From Acidimicrobiia bacterium (GTDB taxonomy: Bacteria; Actinomycetota; Acidimicrobiia; IMCC26256; PALSA-555), in assembly GCA_040881685.1 (NCBI GenBank), contig JBBECS010000047.1:3575-67574 (forward strand): DNA of 64,000 bases, in the 5' to 3' direction. This document shows positions 45,058 through 51,940 of this stretch, piece by piece. Every line of letters begins with the position of its first letter. The stretch's first letter is position 1. The notes under the pieces are model-generated. The model ran no database searches, had not been told where the DNA came from, and saw nothing but the letters and a program-made list of their open reading frames with translations. Made by a program: the position numbers and the translations under genes.

Positions 45058-45840
45058 TTAGCCCTTGGCTTCTTTGGCCTCGCCCTTGGCTTCGGCCTTC
45101 GGTGCCGCTTTCTCCGGCGCGCTGAGCCCGAGCTCGGACCGCAGCTCGCTGAGCCGCGCACCCGCCTCTGCACTCATCTGTGCCTGCTCGACCTCGAGCA
45201 TCTTCGTGTCGACGGATGCGCCGGTGAGGTCGGACGTGGCTTGGGCTTTGGAGAGACGCTTCTCGATCTTGTCCCGCACCTGCTCGAAGGTCGGCACGTC
45301 TTCGCCGACCTGCTCGTTGAGCGTGGCCATCGCCTTGTTCATCTGCTCCTGCATCTTCGCCTGATCGAGCTGGCTGAGGAGCTTCTCGCGCTCGGCAAGC
45401 TTCTTCTGGAGCACCGACGAGTTCTGCGTGACCATCTGCTTGGCCTTCTCTGACGCCTGCGTGGCATCGAGGAGACCCTTCTTCAGCGTCTCGATCTCGG
45501 CTTCGAGGTTGATGATCTTGTTGGCGAACGACTCGGCCGCCGTGTTGAAGCTCACCGACTTGTCGGCGTTGCCAGCGCGCATTTCCTGATCTGAGAGCAG
45601 GAGCGCCTGGCGCGCCGACTTGTTCGCCTTCTCGTACTCCTCGATGGCGCGGTCGAGCTTGAGCTGGAGCTGCTTCTGGTTGGCGATGACGTTCGCGGCC
45701 GACTCGGTCAGCTTGCGGTGCTGATCACGTGCCTCGGTGATCGCCTGCTCGAGCTGGACCTTCGGGTCCGCTTTCTCCTCGAACGCCAAGCCCAGCTTCG
45801 CGCCCAGGTACTTCCACCACTTCTTGATCGTCTTCCACAT
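45058..45840 (-). CDS. pspA: PspA/IM30 family protein
   Basis: 260 residues from ATG 45840. The whole of about 5-225 is helical with heptads (PKVQLEQAITEARDQHRKLTESAANVIANQK; QMNKAMATLNEQVGEDVPTFEQVRDKIEKRL), as in PspA/IM30 proteins of the ESCRT-III superfamily that bind and repair membranes. The N-terminal amphipathic segment WKTIKKWWKYLGAKLG would insert into the membrane. The end is Ala/Lys/Glu-rich. It is the last gene of the minus-strand cluster 45058-51922. Confidence 0.88.
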   Translation of the reverse strand: MWKTIKKWWKYLGAKLGLAFEEKADPKVQLEQAITEARDQHRKLTESAANVIANQKQLQLKLDRAIEEYEKANKSARQALLLSDQEMRAGNADKSVSFNTAAESFANKIINLEAEIETLKKGLLDATQASEKAKQMVTQNSSVLQKKLAEREKLLSQLDQAKMQEQMNKAMATLNEQVGEDVPTFEQVRDKIEKRLSKAQATSDLTGASVDTKMLEVEQAQMSAEAGARLSELRSELGLSAPEKAAPKAEAKGEAKEAKG

Positions 45841-45880
45841 GAGGCCGCAGGCTAGTTGGGCATGGAGGGAGGTTCTACCC

Positions 45881-45948
45881 GCTCCATTGGTCGTCGTCGC
45901 AGGCGACGACTCCTGCTTCGGCGGTCGGCAAAGCCGCCGCCTACGCGC
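45881..45948 (-). repeat. Intergenic hairpin element, copy 8 (module B type, before pspA)
   Basis: On the minus strand: GGCGGCGGCTTTGCCGACCG, hairpin GTCGTCGC / GCGACGAC and CGACCAATGGAGC, matching the second half of the composite copy at 42.9-43.1 kb. Its first bases encode the last residues and the stop (GCG TAG) of the upstream minus gene at 45941-46708. Confidence 0.8.
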
Positions 45949-46708
45949 TCGCCCCTGCTGCCTGGGCGGTGCCGCCGGCCTCATCGAGCGCGACCCGCAG
46001 CGACTCCATCTCGCTCACGACCTCCTCGACCTGGTCGCCGAGGCCGCCGAGCTCGCCCACGTCCTCGGCCCGGATCGAGAGCTCGACCGCCCGGGCGACG
46101 GCCTCGTCGAGGCGCGCGTTCAGCAGCTTGATGCGGTCCTGCGCATCCTCGGCGACATCGATGAGCCGGTCGGCCGTGTCCACCTGCGCCTGGAGCGCCT
46201 TGACGGTGCTCTGCTGCACCTCGTTGCGCGACTCGCCCTGCTTGGCCTCCTCCAGGTCCTTGCGGGCGCCGAGCACGTCGAGGTTGCCGATGGCGTCGAC
46301 CAGCGCGTCGGCGCGGCGCGCGACCCGCCAGCACTCATCGACCCCGGCGTCGATGCGCTCACCGATCTCGACGAGGCGCAGACGCAACGGGCCTTCGTTG
46401 GCCGCGGCCACCGCCTTGCGGTAGCGGCGCTGCGCGTCGAGCGCGTCGCGCACGAACCCGCGCCATGGGTCGGAGATGCTCATCGGATCGATGTGCTCAC
46501 CGCCCGCCCGGCGAGGCAGGAGGGTTGCCACCCGCACGAGCCATGCTGCGGCCGCGATCCCCACGACCGGCAGCGCCGCGAGCCCGGCCAGGATGCCGGC
46601 CGCCGCTCCCGCACCTGCGAGCAGGATCGCCGACGGCGCGGTGATCGCGCCGGCGGTCCTCCGGTTCCTCCAGTGCTCAGGCATTGCGTCGACGATCCCC
46701 ATCAGCAT
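45941..46708 (-). CDS. Membrane-anchored coiled-coil protein, unknown function
   Basis: 255 residues from ATG 46708 (ATG 46702 is also possible). Residues about 18-58 form a helical hairpin of two transmembrane segments (AITAPSAILLAGAGAAAGILAG, LPVVGIAAAAWLVRVATLL). The rest is a long charged coiled coil with the pattern KALQAQVDTADRLIDVAEDAQDRIK. It lies between the VWA protein and PspA, so it could link the membrane to PspA. It is reminiscent of proteins in TelA/XpaC-type loci, but I cannot assign a family. Confidence 0.65.
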   Translation of the reverse strand: MLMGIVDAMPEHWRNRRTAGAITAPSAILLAGAGAAAGILAGLAALPVVGIAAAAWLVRVATLLPRRAGGEHIDPMSISDPWRGFVRDALDAQRRYRKAVAAANEGPLRLRLVEIGERIDAGVDECWRVARRADALVDAIGNLDVLGARKDLEEAKQGESRNEVQQSTVKALQAQVDTADRLIDVAEDAQDRIKLLNARLDEAVARAVELSIRAEDVGELGGLGDQVEEVVSEMESLRVALDEAGGTAQAAGASA

Positions 46709-46715
46709 CGACCCA

Positions 46716-48506
46716 TCAGAAGTTGCTGACCACCGCGTTGAACACGTTGATGATCGTGGCCGGGTCGACCGCCGAGTACGACGCCGCGTTCGTGGCTTCG
46801 GCGATGCGCCCGAGCGTGGCTTCGTCGGCGTCACCGCCATATGCGATCGGGAAGACCCTCACCGGGGTGCTGCTCTCGCCCTCGTTCTCGCTGCGCAGGA
46901 ATTTCAGCAAACCCTGGAGATCGTTGTTGCGATCGTCTTCGTTGCGTCCGTCGCTCAGCAAGACGACCGCGTTGATCCGGGTCTCGTCGAACTCGTCGAC
47001 CATGCGCTCGTACGAGTCGCGCGTCACCGTGTACAGCGGTGTGCCTTGTGTGGGCACGAGGCCCCGGATGTTGCGCTCGAGCGCGTCGAGGTTTTCCGAG
47101 ACGGGACCGATCGGCACCAGGTCGAGGTAGTCGGTGGGCTCCTCCTCGGAGATCTCGGTGGAGAACACCCGCAGCCCAACCTCGTCGTCCGGGTTGAACT
47201 CCTCGAGCGCCGCGATCGCCGCGCGCTTGGCGAGATCGAGCTTCGTGGCACCGGTGCGCGGGTCGGCTTCGTCCCCCATCGATCCCGACACGTCGATCAC
47301 GAGCAGCACGCGCGCCTTCTTGCGCACGTTGTTCCATTCGTCGATCACACCCGTGAGGACCGAAGGGCTCGGCACTTCGAGCGTCGTCTGGGGCTGCTCG
47401 GGGTCGAGGCCGTTCGCGGCGGTGATCGGCTTGCCGATGGCCACCGACGGGTTGCCGGGCCGGAACCCGAACTTCAGCACACGCTCCTGGTTGCGCGCCT
47501 CGGTGACGAACGACGCGAACTTGCGTGCCGCCGCGGCTTCACGACTCGAGACCCACGGGGCGTCGAGCACCATCAGTGGGTTGTCGGAGAAGAGCGTCCC
47601 TTCCTTGGGGTAGATCGCCACGAGCGGGACGCGCGGCTTGCGGGGCTTTTCGCCGGGATCGAGGATCCCGTCGGGGTCGCCGCGGTTGTAGTCGACCACC
47701 GACTTCTCCTCGACCGCGACCGCCGACGCGTAGCCGAACGGGTCGCCCCGGCGATCGGATCGGTAGAGGTTGTTGAGGAACGTGAGCGTGGTGTCGCCGT
47801 AGTGCACGACGGCTGACTCCACGGCTCGTGAGTAGGCCTCGACTTCGGGGCGCTGGAGGTCTTCGAGAGTGAGGTCGCGCGTCTTGCCGGTCGCGGCGTA
47901 ATACTGCGCGACAGTCTCGGCGAGGCCGCTGGTGGAGAAGTTGGGGTTCGTCTTGCCGAACCGGAACGGACCCCATTCGGGGTGTCCCTTCCCGGCCCAA
48001 CCGGCTGGATCTTGCGCCAATGCCAGCACGTCTTCGAAGCCGAGCGGGGTGTCGGGATACCCGAGCGCCTCGGCCATCGGCTCGGGCATCGCGATGACGA
48101 GCGGCGTGAGCATGAACGACTTGCCCGGCGTGGGTACGTACGGCTCCTTCCCGGCGTCGACGCGGCGCTGGTCGAGGACGCCGGCCCAGGTGCTCGCTGC
48201 GGGCGACCAGATCACCGGGCGCGGCCCGTTCTTCGCCGGCTTCGGCCAGTCGGCCGCGAGCAGGGTGGCGGCGGCGCCCGACGACTGGCGCTGTACGCGC
48301 ACTTCGATGCACTGCCCATCGATCTTGGCCGCGTCGGATCCGGCGAAGCGCTCGCCGAGCTCGGTGAGCAGCGTGAGCTTCTCCGGCGACGACGCGATGT
48401 CGACGGTGACGCACCCGCCCGCGGCGGCGGGTGACGCACCGAGCGCGAGCGTGCCCGCGGTCAGAGTCGCGACGAGCGCGCCGCTGGTTCGCCGCTTCGA
48501 GATCAT
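46716..48506 (-). CDS. Exported solute-binding-like and VWA domain protein
   Basis: 596 residues. The signal peptide (about 1-29; ALVATLTAGTLALGASPAAA) is followed by a periplasmic binding-protein-like domain (about 32-370; SSPEKLTLLTELGERF, PVIWSPAASTWAGVL) and a von Willebrand A domain (about 398-590). The MIDAS is complete: DVSGSMG near residue 405, Thr in TQGTPLY and LLSDGRNEDD. VWA domains bind protein ligands through a metal. The gene overlaps the upstream exported protein (ATGA) and is followed after 7 bp by the coiled-coil gene. Confidence 0.88.
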   Translation of the reverse strand: MISKRRTSGALVATLTAGTLALGASPAAAGGCVTVDIASSPEKLTLLTELGERFAGSDAAKIDGQCIEVRVQRQSSGAAATLLAADWPKPAKNGPRPVIWSPAASTWAGVLDQRRVDAGKEPYVPTPGKSFMLTPLVIAMPEPMAEALGYPDTPLGFEDVLALAQDPAGWAGKGHPEWGPFRFGKTNPNFSTSGLAETVAQYYAATGKTRDLTLEDLQRPEVEAYSRAVESAVVHYGDTTLTFLNNLYRSDRRGDPFGYASAVAVEEKSVVDYNRGDPDGILDPGEKPRKPRVPLVAIYPKEGTLFSDNPLMVLDAPWVSSREAAAARKFASFVTEARNQERVLKFGFRPGNPSVAIGKPITAANGLDPEQPQTTLEVPSPSVLTGVIDEWNNVRKKARVLLVIDVSGSMGDEADPRTGATKLDLAKRAAIAALEEFNPDDEVGLRVFSTEISEEEPTDYLDLVPIGPVSENLDALERNIRGLVPTQGTPLYTVTRDSYERMVDEFDETRINAVVLLSDGRNEDDRNNDLQGLLKFLRSENEGESSTPVRVFPIAYGGDADEATLGRIAEATNAASYSAVDPATIINVFNAVVSNF

Positions 48507-49516
48507 CCGGTCACCTCGCGCCAGGTCTGGAGGAGTGCGACGAGCGCACCCGAATCGGGAAGGTTGGACCGCCCCTGGAGTGTCGGCTTGTCGCCCTCGC
48601 TGTCGGAACGGAAACCGACGTTGGTGAGTGCGTCGTGGCCGTCGTCACCGGTGACGATGTCGGCGAGGTCGGAGCTCCCGCCGACGAACGGTGCGAACAC
48701 GACATCGACCGTAGCCACGGGGGCAGGGTAGAGCAGCCGCAGTGATTCCTGTCGGTCGCGCGACGCCGGCGTCCGCTCGACGACCGCCTCGGTGGTGGCA
48801 ACCATGTCATATCTCGCGGGCCCGAACGACAGCATGTGCTCGTACGCATCGGCGTCCAGCTCGGCGGCCCGCTCGACGCGGGCGAACCAGTCGAGGAACG
48901 CGTCCTCCTCGAAGTCGTCGCGAGAGAGATCCGAGCGATCGAAGAACTGCGCGGCGGCTTGCCCGATGATCGCGAGACCTTCGCCGGTCGCCTCGGGGTC
49001 GGCGTGCCCAGGCTTGACGTCACCCCACGCGGCTTCACCGCCGATGGACTGCCAGCGAGTCCCGGCGACATCACCGAGGCACCGCCACGTGATCTCCCCG
49101 CAATGACTCTCGAGCACCTCGGCTCGATCGTCCCAGATCGCCAGCAGCAATGGCGACCGCGCAATCGCCGGCGACGAATCTTCCAGGAGCGGCGCAAGCG
49201 ACGAACGGACTCGCGCTTCGCGCACGATCTCGGCGTTCGGCTCAAAGGTCAGCCACCCGTCATACGGAAGAGAGGAGGTGGTATCGGCACTCGTAGAGAG
49301 CGTGCCCGTCGAGACTCCGGCCGGTTCGAGCACGATCTCGACGTCCGCGTTGCGCGCCAGCTCGTCGCACGCCGCCGCGAGCTCCGTCGCACACAGCACC
49401 ACCGGCGTGCCGCTGCCGTTCGAGCCGCCGCTGTCGTCGTCGATCCACCAGGACCGCGCGCCGAGCGCGAATCCGACCATCGCCAGCGCCCCGAGCAGGG
49501 CCAGCAGTCGTCTCAC
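48503..49516 (-). CDS. Exported solute-binding-like protein without VWA domain
   Basis: 337 residues from GTG 49516. An N-terminal signal anchor (LLALLGALAMVGFALGARSWW) precedes a domain with segments like the binding-protein part of its neighbour (YDGWLTFEPNAEIVREA, LLAIWDDRAEVLES, EGLAIIGQAAAQFF). Ligand unknown. The start is placed behind the GAGCGGGAAAG tail of the hairpin element; an earlier in-frame ATG at 49576 would lie inside that element. It is translationally coupled to the VWA gene. Confidence 0.72.
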   Translation of the reverse strand: MRRLLALLGALAMVGFALGARSWWIDDDSGGSNGSGTPVVLCATELAAACDELARNADVEIVLEPAGVSTGTLSTSADTTSSLPYDGWLTFEPNAEIVREARVRSSLAPLLEDSSPAIARSPLLLAIWDDRAEVLESHCGEITWRCLGDVAGTRWQSIGGEAAWGDVKPGHADPEATGEGLAIIGQAAAQFFDRSDLSRDDFEEDAFLDWFARVERAAELDADAYEHMLSFGPARYDMVATTEAVVERTPASRDRQESLRLLYPAPVATVDVVFAPFVGGSSDLADIVTGDDGHDALTNVGFRSDSEGDKPTLQGRSNLPDSGALVALLQTWREVTG

Positions 49517-49517
49517 C

Positions 49518-49604
49518 TTTCCCGCTCTTGGCACCTGCGGCGCCGGGTCGCTTGGGCCCCGCCTCGGGCGCCGCACGATACGTGCGGCGCTGGTCCTCGC
49601 CTCA
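49518..49604 (-). repeat. Intergenic hairpin element, copy 9 (between the AAA+ gene and the exported protein gene)
   Basis: On the minus strand it begins with the stop TGA of the AAA+ gene (GAGTGAGGCG), then hairpin 1 GCGCCGCACG / CGTGCGGCGC (plus-strand 49568-49590) with an ATA/TAT loop, the spacer CCCGAGGCGGGGCCCAAGCG, and the tail CCAAGAGCGGGAAAGG that abuts the next start. The CACG/CGTG pair replaces the CAGG/CCTG of other copies. Confidence 0.85.
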
Positions 49605-50984
49605 CTCCGTGCTGGCCGGGCTGGGGACGTCGGCCGCAGTCAGGGTGGTGAGCTGCTTGTCGGTCGGGTTCTTCACGTCGACCACACGGCTCGCTTGATG
49701 CGTGACGCAGTCTTCGAACAGGTTGCGCGCCGTGCGACCGTTCCCGAACGTGGCGTCGCGCGGCTGCGCCGCGAACCAGGTTTTCACAGCGGCGCGGGCA
49801 CTCTTGTCGAGCTTGTAGTGGCTCTGCTCGCCGATCGACTCGAAGATCGCCATGAGCTCGTCGTCGCTGTAGTCGGGGAAGTCGATCTGCTTGTTGAAGC
49901 GCGATCGGATGCCGGGGTTCGACTCGACGAACTTCTTCATCGGCTCCGTGTACCCGGCCACGATGACGATGAGATCGGCGCGGTCGTCTTCCATCCGTTT
50001 TAGCAGAGTCGCGACGGCTTCGGCTCCGAAGTCCTGCTCGCTCTCGGTGACGAGCGCGTACGCCTCGTCGATGAAGAGCACGCCACCCTTGGCCTCGTCA
50101 CACGCCTTGTTGACCTTGGGCGCGGTCTGGCCCACGTAGCCGGCGACGAGACCCGAGCGATCCGTCTCGAGCAGGTGGCCCTTCGACACCACCTTGAGCA
50201 CCTTGTAGAAGCGCGCCAGCAAGCGCGCCACCGTCGTCTTGCCGGTGCCGGGGTTGCCGAGGAACACGAGGTGCAGGCTGCGGTCCACGACGGGGAGCTT
50301 GCGCTCGCGCCGCATGTTCTCGACGCGCACGAGGTTGATGAGCAGTCGCACTTCGGTCTTGACCGCTTTCAGTCCGACGAGCTTGTCGAGCTCTGCGAGA
50401 AGGTCTTCGAGCGTCTCGACTGGTTGCTCTTTGCCGGCATCACCCGGTTCGGGACCGGAGTCTGCAGGGCGCTCGATGTCGGCTGCCTTGATGCGCCGCA
50501 ACATCATCGAGCGCAACGTGTCCACGGCCAGCAGCTCCTCGCGCGTTGGCGTGGTGTCGATCGCGCAGACCGCGTGCGCGACGCGCATGGCGTTGTCGTA
50601 ATAGCGCCACGCGTAAGCCGTCTTCGCCTTGGCGTCTGCTGTCACGATCGTCTCGAACAGCGGCGACGGGGTGATCGGGAAGCCCCGGTGCTGGCGAATC
50701 GCGGGGCTGTCACGCAACGACTCGGGTGTGGCGCCGCGCAGCGACTCGAACCACGATGACAGGGCGACCGTGAACGACCGCAGCTCGGCGTCGCTCGGGT
50801 GGCCGTCGGAGGTGATGACGCTGGCCGCGATGGCCTGTACCTCGAGCGCGGCGTCTCGCTCGAGCGCGCCCCGGTCGACGGTGGTCCCCCCGCCCCGGAG
50901 GGCGGCGAGCACGTCGGTCAGCTCGGTGACGAAGGCTCTGACCGGCTCGTCGAGGAGGCCGGTACTGGGGCTGGGCTCTGGCAC
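49602..50984 (-). CDS. AAA+ ATPase of CbxX/CfxQ type with TerB-like N-terminal region
   Basis: 460 residues from GTG 50984 (start uncertain). The N-terminal 180 residues are helical and look TerB-like (EVQAIAASVITSDGHPSDAELRSF; AHAVCAIDTTPTREELLAVDTLR). The AAA+ domain has Walker A FLGNPGTGKTTVA (about 240-252), Walker B GGVLFIDEAYAL (about 298-309), sensor 1 IVIVAGYTEPM and an Arg finger in NPGIRSRFN. Such ATPases remodel protein complexes. It heads a minus-strand set with two exported binding proteins, a coiled-coil membrane protein and PspA. Confidence 0.88.
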   Translation of the reverse strand: MPEPSPSTGLLDEPVRAFVTELTDVLAALRGGGTTVDRGALERDAALEVQAIAASVITSDGHPSDAELRSFTVALSSWFESLRGATPESLRDSPAIRQHRGFPITPSPLFETIVTADAKAKTAYAWRYYDNAMRVAHAVCAIDTTPTREELLAVDTLRSMMLRRIKAADIERPADSGPEPGDAGKEQPVETLEDLLAELDKLVGLKAVKTEVRLLINLVRVENMRRERKLPVVDRSLHLVFLGNPGTGKTTVARLLARFYKVLKVVSKGHLLETDRSGLVAGYVGQTAPKVNKACDEAKGGVLFIDEAYALVTESEQDFGAEAVATLLKRMEDDRADLIVIVAGYTEPMKKFVESNPGIRSRFNKQIDFPDYSDDELMAIFESIGEQSHYKLDKSARAAVKTWFAAQPRDATFGNGRTARNLFEDCVTHQASRVVDVKNPTDKQLTTLTAADVPSPASTE

Positions 50985-51922
50985 CCCGACATCCTCGCAT
51001 TCAGCCAGCCGGAGAGGACCGCCACGAGGCGGTCGGGGTCCTCGAGCTGTGGGGCGTGGCCGACGCCGTCGAGCACGCGGAGCTCGACATGGTCGTTGCG
51101 GGTCGCGGCCTCGCGTGCGGCGACCAGGCTCACGAGGCGGTCGTGCTCGCCGTGCACGAGGAGCATCGGGCACTCCACCGCCGCGGCGAGGTCCTCGTTG
51201 ATGCCGCGGGCCAGGTACAGCAGCAAGGTTCGCGCCGCTTCGGCGTACGCACCCGCGGCCTCCGGGTAGCCGTACCGCTCGGCCGCGAGCGCGATGAGGC
51301 GGCGTCGCAGGTCGGGGTCGAGGCGACCCGTGTCGTGCAAGCTCCACGACAAGGTCGCGTCGACCAGGCGTTCCGGACCGAGCATGCGGGCGCGGGTGCG
51401 CACGACTCGACCGCCGAGCGAAGACACCATCACCGGCGCGAAGCGCGCGAGCCGGAGGAAGTCGACCACGCTGGGCCGTGGGTGTGGGAGCGCGGGATCG
51501 ACCAGCACGAGGCTGGTGACGAGATCGGGACGCCGGGCGGCGACCCCGATCGCGATCGATGCCCCCATCGAGTTGCCGACCGCGACCGATGGACCCTGGA
51601 CCTCGAGGAGCGCGGTTACAAGCTGGCGGTTGGACGCGATCGACGCCGAGCGTTCCGGCGCGCGCGTTCGTCCGAAGCCGATGAGATCGACGGCGGTGAC
51701 CGGCGCACCAAGGGCGTCGGCCAGCGGTTGACCGATCGGCTCCCACGACAACGTGTTCGCGCCGAGCCCGTGGACGAGAAGAACGCGGTGCTGGTCCTCA
51801 CGAGGCTCGATCGGTGTCCACTCCACGGCGTGCACTCGCACACCGTCGGCCTCGAGGTGGTGCGCGCGCCCGAGCGGCGCGCGACTTGACGACGCATGCT
51901 CCGATTCTTCCTGCCCGCCCAC
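50918..51922 (-). CDS. Alpha/beta hydrolase
   Basis: About 334 residues; the GTG at 51922 is one of several possible starts. The core has VLLVHGLGANTLSWEPIG (oxyanion loop), VDLIGFGRT, the nucleophile elbow VAVGNSMGASIAI (Ser in GNSMG), LLVHGEHDRLV (acid) and DGVGHAPQLEDP (His). The typical GxSxG is thus GNSMG. Substrate unknown. Its 3' end overlaps the start of the AAA+ gene by about 67 bp if the GTG at 50984 is right. It is divergent from the gene at 51941. Confidence 0.78.
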   Translation of the reverse strand: MGGQEESEHASSSRAPLGRAHHLEADGVRVHAVEWTPIEPREDQHRVLLVHGLGANTLSWEPIGQPLADALGAPVTAVDLIGFGRTRAPERSASIASNRQLVTALLEVQGPSVAVGNSMGASIAIGVAARRPDLVTSLVLVDPALPHPRPSVVDFLRLARFAPVMVSSLGGRVVRTRARMLGPERLVDATLSWSLHDTGRLDPDLRRRLIALAAERYGYPEAAGAYAEAARTLLLYLARGINEDLAAAVECPMLLVHGEHDRLVSLVAAREAATRNDHVELRVLDGVGHAPQLEDPDRLVAVLSGWLNARMSGCQSPAPVPASSTSRSEPSSPS

Positions 51923-51940
51923 GCCTGTCAATGTAGTGGG

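Follow-up and report, generated by a model that had tools for sequence, protein, structure and literature searches.

Which enzyme might act on bacterial PspA as Vps4 acts on ESCRT-III? The question is raised by a run of six minus-strand genes in a 64,000-nucleotide stretch of an Acidimicrobiia genome (contig JBBECS010000047.1; the whole stretch is called the window), where pspA lies in series with genes for an AAA+ ATPase (AAA), a solute-binding-like protein (SBP), an exported protein that joins a binding domain to a VWA domain (the SBP-VWA protein), a coiled-coil membrane protein (CC) and a hydrolase. PspA and Vipp1 have been placed in the ESCRT-III superfamily in work that leaves open whether any ATPase takes the Vps4 role for them (PMC8281802). 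Our comparison of the locus with its relatives demonstrates that AAA and, in many genomes, the lipid II flippase MurJ are linked to PspA at the level of gene order. With a probability of about 0.5, we favor the reading that the cassette formed by AAA, SBP, the SBP-VWA gene, CC and pspA is a PspA-centered system that maintains the envelope and is connected with lipid II traffic, in which AAA remodels PspA and/or CC.

An earlier note on this DNA had described the six genes in series, and all six are present, with the following coordinates and signals.

51930..51935, minus strand: TACATT, lying 7 nt ahead of the hydrolase GTG and overlapped by a weak sigma-70-like match; it may serve the run as a leaderless -10 box
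50918..51922, minus strand: alpha/beta hydrolase, which opens the run and is not core to the cassette
49602..50984, minus strand: AAA, a cytosolic AAA+ ATPase of the CbbX clade that starts at a GTG and has a helical N-terminal domain of 175 residues (PF00004 and PF17866, AAA_lid_6)
48503..49576, minus strand: SBP, 357 aa, single-span anchored paralogue of the binding domain of the SBP-VWA protein (hhalign and predicted topology)
46716..48506, minus strand: exported SBP_bac_11 and VWA protein, 596 aa (Pfam, complete MIDAS)
45941..46708, minus strand: CC, 255 aa, predicted membrane hairpin and cytoplasmic coiled coil, without an accepted family
45849..45877, minus strand: probable pspA promoter, TAGAAC-17 nt-TAGCCT, with a -10 box of leaderless type that ends 8 nt before the ATG (inferred from the sequence)
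45058..45840, minus strand: pspA, 260 aa PspA/IM30 protein (PF04012)

The intergenic gaps from the hydrolase to PspA are -67, 25, -4, 7 and 100 bp. An Rfam scan of the window gave no match, and sigma-70 and terminator scans of the window remained at background level.

Linkage of AAA and MurJ to PspA

A scan of genome contigs yielded 245 relatives of the SBP-VWA protein, and the locus counts given here are for the best 80 of these 245. The loci were gathered by query, mostly from metagenome-assembled genomes (MAGs), and both these 80 VWA loci and a further set of 78 PspA loci include deliberately chosen cassette-free genomes; the proportions are not population frequencies. A complete cassette on a single strand was found in 47 of the 80 VWA loci. 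The order AAA-SBP-VWA-CC-PspA is kept in relatives from the window's own order, some of them split by contig ends, at identities down to about 48-63% for AAA, VWA, CC and PspA; SBP is less conserved. The cassette is also present in three families of the same phylum, Actinomycetota, outside the window's class Acidimicrobiia (f79, f86 and f93). Where at least 4.5 kb was available on both sides (36 loci), AAA and PspA were both found in 28, neither in 7, PspA only in 1 and AAA only in none. Co-conservation of the gene set, on which the earlier note had made its proposal depend, is therefore borne out for five genes, which occur together in several unrelated neighborhoods, both within Acidimicrobiia and elsewhere in Actinomycetota. 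As a cassette neighbor, the hydrolase, which had been counted in the set, is confined to relatives from the same order as the window, and it was rejected as a component.

In 30 of the 47 complete cassettes, a gene of 1.6-2 kb is located between CC and PspA. Its product was confirmed as MurJ in two relatives, L093 and L060, with scores of 278.8 and 275.3 for PF03023 (cut-off 27.4) and 304.9 and 295.1 for TIGR01695 (cut-off 235.6); the other MurJ calls at this position were made by a match to a profile built from the set itself.

The cassette acts like a pair of sub-modules, an SBP-VWA-CC unit that faces outward and an AAA-(CC)-(MurJ)-PspA unit. In family f20 the VWA gene is gone and AAA-CC-MurJ-PspA remains. 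Where the VWA unit is located elsewhere in the genome, AAA-MurJ-PspA is retained on one strand at L294-L296 and AAA-CC-PspA at L297, and at L293 AAA is found about 4 kb from PspA on the same strand. Desertimonas flava (L107), a culturable species, carries a run SBP-VWA-CC-MurJ with PspA in inverted orientation and AAA at another place. A survey of 78 non-redundant PspA loci with 7.5 kb of upstream sequence gave 48 with AAA and VWA, 9 with AAA and no VWA, 6 with VWA and no AAA, and 15 with neither, the last class including genomes picked for lacking the cassette. We count the presence of AAA beside PspA, even where the VWA unit has been relocated or lost, as support for the favored reading. The other unit also occurs separately: VWA-CC-PspA is found without AAA at L191 and L197 (at L197 only position and topology identify CC). 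In genus g27, three genomes carry the VWA gene with no PspA detected.

PspA, CC and a proposed mechanism

The window PspA matches PF04012 with 97.9 bits against a cut-off of 33.9 (E 8.6e-28), and solved polymer structures exist among its sequence relatives. A search of the window genome detected a single PspA, the cassette copy, and almost all of the tested cassette genomes likewise showed no PspA besides the one in the cassette. A TANNNT motif ending 7-10 nt upstream of the ATG is present at 44 of 54 pspA genes, compared to 1.3 expected from shuffles. At the same position it was found for 1 of 69 CC genes, 2 of 78 VWA genes, 15 of 50 AAA genes and 18 of 49 SBP genes. Most of the remaining pspA genes have an AGGAG-like ribosome site, as judged by eye. 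Since so many pspA genes carry this leaderless-type -10 box, pspA is likely, on the strength of the motif, to be transcribed alone as well as within the run. Thus the description of the genes as one series stands for their order, which is kept, but pspA usually carries a promoter signal of its own.

CC contains one hydrophobic stretch of 42-46 residues near its N-terminus. Because the flanks of this stretch are mostly positive, CC is predicted to enter the membrane as a short hairpin and to have its coiled coil on the cytoplasmic side, which it would share with PspA and AAA. Its start is uncertain and is either the ATG at 46708 or two codons later. The coiled coil had been proposed to tie sensors on the outside of the membrane; a coiled coil predicted to be cytoplasmic, with little outside surface, would be poorly suited to tie exported sensors. 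CC was also considered as a homologue of PspM and rejected, with no Pfam match to PF25587 and an hhalign probability of 4.5% between the profiles. In one genome, G023, PspA and its own CC are located at L267:8462-10188 and a second run, VWA-CC-SBP, is on another contig (L029); CC appears to have been duplicated there, with one copy for each half of the cassette.

We infer that the cassette proteins form a physical complex with a role in envelope stress. PspA would coat or remodel the membrane from inside the cell, with the CC hairpin protein as its membrane anchor or adaptor. The CbbX-clade AAA would use ATP to extract subunits from PspA and/or CC assemblies for recycling or reshaping, as Vps4 does. 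On the outside, the SBP-VWA protein and the SBP paralogue would bind a cell-wall or membrane ligand, the VWA domain by way of its metal-dependent adhesion site, and would report to the inner part or position it. The site of action would probably be peptidoglycan precursor traffic, because MurJ is in the cassette of many relatives.

Several observations weigh against this reading. Gene linkage leaves the client of AAA unnamed, and MurJ or CC could be that client. MurJ, the strongest clue beyond those open to the earlier note, is missing from the window cassette, and the single MurJ of the window genome is encoded on another contig. PspA is found with CC or MurJ and no AAA in G115, G121, G170, G335 and G482. 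The length of the PspA C-terminal tail showed no difference between genomes with and without AAA, and with these overlapping ranges a special tail that serves as a handle for AAA is unsupported. Furthermore, the counts ignore kinship among loci, in a sample that is query-gathered and mostly MAGs.

The strongest rival takes MurJ or the wall-synthesis machinery as the client. AAA and CC would act on MurJ or on that machinery to control cell-wall assembly, and PspA would be a protective accessory. The AAA-MurJ-PspA runs at L294-L296 are in keeping with such a role, as is the location of MurJ beside PspA even without AAA at L245, L246 and L251, and a wall ligand would suit the outside binding proteins. 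However, complete cassettes without MurJ are numerous, the window's among them, and AAA-CC-PspA stands without MurJ at L297. We consider this alternative unlikely, although it has to be taken seriously.

Flanking genes

The genes that flank the cassette vary. Relatives of the window have the hydrolase and mdh-icd, family f10 has CDF/fumarase, and most other Acidimicrobiia loci have proA and proB-obgE; none of these flanks is present in f79, f86 or f93. Since the flanks differ among cassette loci, the linkage points to more than an inherited neighborhood. A purely neutral synteny, with adjacency due to shared neighborhood ancestry alone, would be easier to accept for loci that all come from one phylum and from a MAG-rich, query-biased sample. 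It is nevertheless improbable, as the five genes stay joined while their flanks change, the regrouping into sub-modules keeps AAA with PspA, and the spacing is tight, with a 4-bp overlap.

Two side observations concern individual loci. At L178:5354-7666 (minus strand), a protein-kinase-like gene on the opposite strand, recognized by eye, is located between AAA and SBP. A full Acidimicrobiia-type cassette was also found in three records, L105 (CAMDCC010000015.1), L085 (CAMDLX010000070.1) and L057 (QEUP01000004.1), of which two are titled Bifidobacterium breve and one Acidobacteria; these MAG titles are probably wrong.

The exported binding proteins

The SBP-VWA protein exceeds the Pfam cut-offs for both of its domains, with 46 versus 25 bits for SBP_bac_11 and 34 versus 27 bits for VWA. 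The metal ion-dependent adhesion site (MIDAS) had been called complete, and the DxSxS, T and D elements are indeed all present and conserved, as D405, S407 and S409 (codons 47280-47294), T489 and D519. Judged by eye, relatives of the protein are lipoprotein-like and often have a lipobox, and those of the window's genus have a plain signal sequence. SBP is without any Pfam match, but it is a full-length relative of the binding domain of the SBP-VWA protein (hhalign 97.2%), and its description as solute-binding-like is supported by this kinship and not by Pfam. The true start of SBP may be about 20 codons downstream of the annotated one.

Diverged forms of the SBP-VWA gene were observed elsewhere. 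At L030-L033 (genomes G045, G053, G049 and G056) the gene stands alone, without AAA, CC or PspA. The neighborhood of L030 and L032 resembles that of L026/L028, and in three of these four genomes no PspA was detected anywhere. At L110, L111 and L190 the next gene is weakly CC-like (32-37 bits) and there is no AAA or PspA nearby; these loci are possibly a further branch of the surface unit.

An AAA protein and a VWA protein in one run recall a common pairing, exemplified by RavA-ViaA (PMC9489729, PMC10585395). In a pair of this kind, whether MoxR/RavA-ViaA-like or chelatase-like, the two proteins would share a client and PspA would be a mere neighbor. Such a pair is highly improbable, because the VWA protein carries a signal for export, and AAA stays with PspA or MurJ where VWA is absent or elsewhere. 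AAA itself is without signal or membrane span by topology prediction, which would place the two proteins on opposite sides of the membrane, and it is of CbbX type, not MoxR. Solute uptake, with the binding proteins delivering a solute and the rest of the cassette incidental, might be suggested by the two substrate-binding-type proteins. We give it very little weight, as one of the binding domains shares its polypeptide with VWA and no permease or ABC ATPase was recognized in the window run or in the relatives' runs listed.

The AAA+ ATPase

The core of AAA belongs to the CbbX/SpoVK/EccA group, with Pfam matches to AAA (PF00004) and AAA_lid_6 (PF17866). Walker A (residue 243), Walker B (303) and the aromatic pore loop GYVGQTA (282) are intact and conserved. 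Its NCBIfam scores are all under the cut-offs (SpoVK 274.5 versus 423, EccA 245 versus 467, CbbX 242.8 versus 459), and the best match in the PDB is CbbX, with 41% identity in the structure alignment. In an AlphaFold2 model with a predicted local distance difference test score (pLDDT) of 92, the N-terminal domain is all-helical. A Foldseek comparison of this domain to the PDB gave nothing below E 0.4; it has no solved relative there, and no MIT domain was seen.

The earlier note's domain calls held for PspA, for SBP_bac_11 with VWA and for a CbbX/SpoVK/EccA-type AAA+ protein, but its TerB-like region in AAA was not confirmed. The N-terminus of the window protein has no Pfam match, the PDB profile comparison was negative or sub-threshold, no fold match was found, and comparison of its profile to a real TerB profile gave an hhalign probability of 1%. 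TerB (PF05099) matches were sub-threshold in 2 of 48 AAA relatives, with a best E of 0.043, and TerB membership was rejected. A very remote kinship may exist, because a short ADG..D..EL motif is common to both sequences.

A gene for the Rubisco large subunit is present in the window genome, on a different contig (G000:C24:18769-19662, L266). A CbbX-type Rubisco activase placed here by accident, the unrelated client that had been named as a danger to the original proposal, is scarcely credible despite this gene and the CbbX match in the PDB, as AAA misses the CbbX cut-off (242.8 versus 459 bits), no Rubisco match was obtained in 12 of the 18 cassette genomes examined, no relative of AAA is present in the 15 kb around the window genome's Rubisco locus, and AAA is found with PspA across many families.

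Comparison with known systems

Associations of PspA with other AAA+ proteins are already published; we found no description of the present arrangement. According to Ravi et al. 2024 (PMC11237479), PspA is encoded with an AAA+ ATPase, sometimes together with solute- and peptidoglycan-binding proteins, and ESCRT-like remodeling is proposed; for PspA homologues that lack an AAA ATPase, the control of assembly is called unknown there. The AAA+ types described in that text either carry a pair of AAA domains, the N-terminal one inactive, or are beta-propeller fusions. In the cassette, by contrast, there is a single AAA of the CbbX clade, its N-terminal domain helical, accompanied by SBP-VWA, CC and MurJ, and VWA, MurJ, CbbX and SpoVK are not mentioned in the main text of that paper. 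A 2022 survey (PMC9239133) reported actinobacterial pspA with histidine kinases. Literature on PspA with MurJ/MviN or in Acidimicrobiia gave no account of the cassette by titles and abstracts, with most subscription journals outside the coverage.

Proteins of Streptomyces and Miltoncostaea with the RefSeq name "substrate-binding and VWA domain-containing" share the two-domain architecture at about 42% identity. Their genes adjoin a short hairpin/coiled-coil-like gene but, unlike the cassette, no PspA or AAA. Annotation of such a surface protein usually stops at the names of its domains; the cassette supplies it with a context.

The mycobacterial ClgR-PspA-PspM (Rv2743c) operon, also from Actinomycetota, likewise places PspA beside a small membrane protein that is coiled-coil-like in part. 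It differs in that CC is not a detectable homologue of PspM and no ClgR was recognized beside the window cassette. The CbbX/SpoVK/EccA group is closest to AAA by sequence and structure, and AAA differs from it in the N-terminal domain, the neighboring genes and scores below the cut-offs.

The cassette names one specific AAA+ candidate for a PspA motor, suggests CC as a membrane adaptor and points to MurJ as the likely site of action. Through it, little-studied actinobacteria supply a specific protein that could be the motor for bacterial PspA that has long been sought. As in ESCRT-III/Vps4, an ESCRT-III-superfamily protein is encoded together with an AAA+ enzyme that bears a pore loop and active-site motifs. 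In contrast to Vps4, AAA is of the CbbX clade, with an N-terminal domain that lacks a solved match and in which no MIT domain was seen. We tentatively raise the possibility, itself doubtful, that the cassette is an independently arisen functional counterpart of ESCRT-III/Vps4, in which a CbbX-clade motor would be dedicated to PspA polymers wherever lipid II is flipped and the SBP-VWA unit would report the state of the wall.

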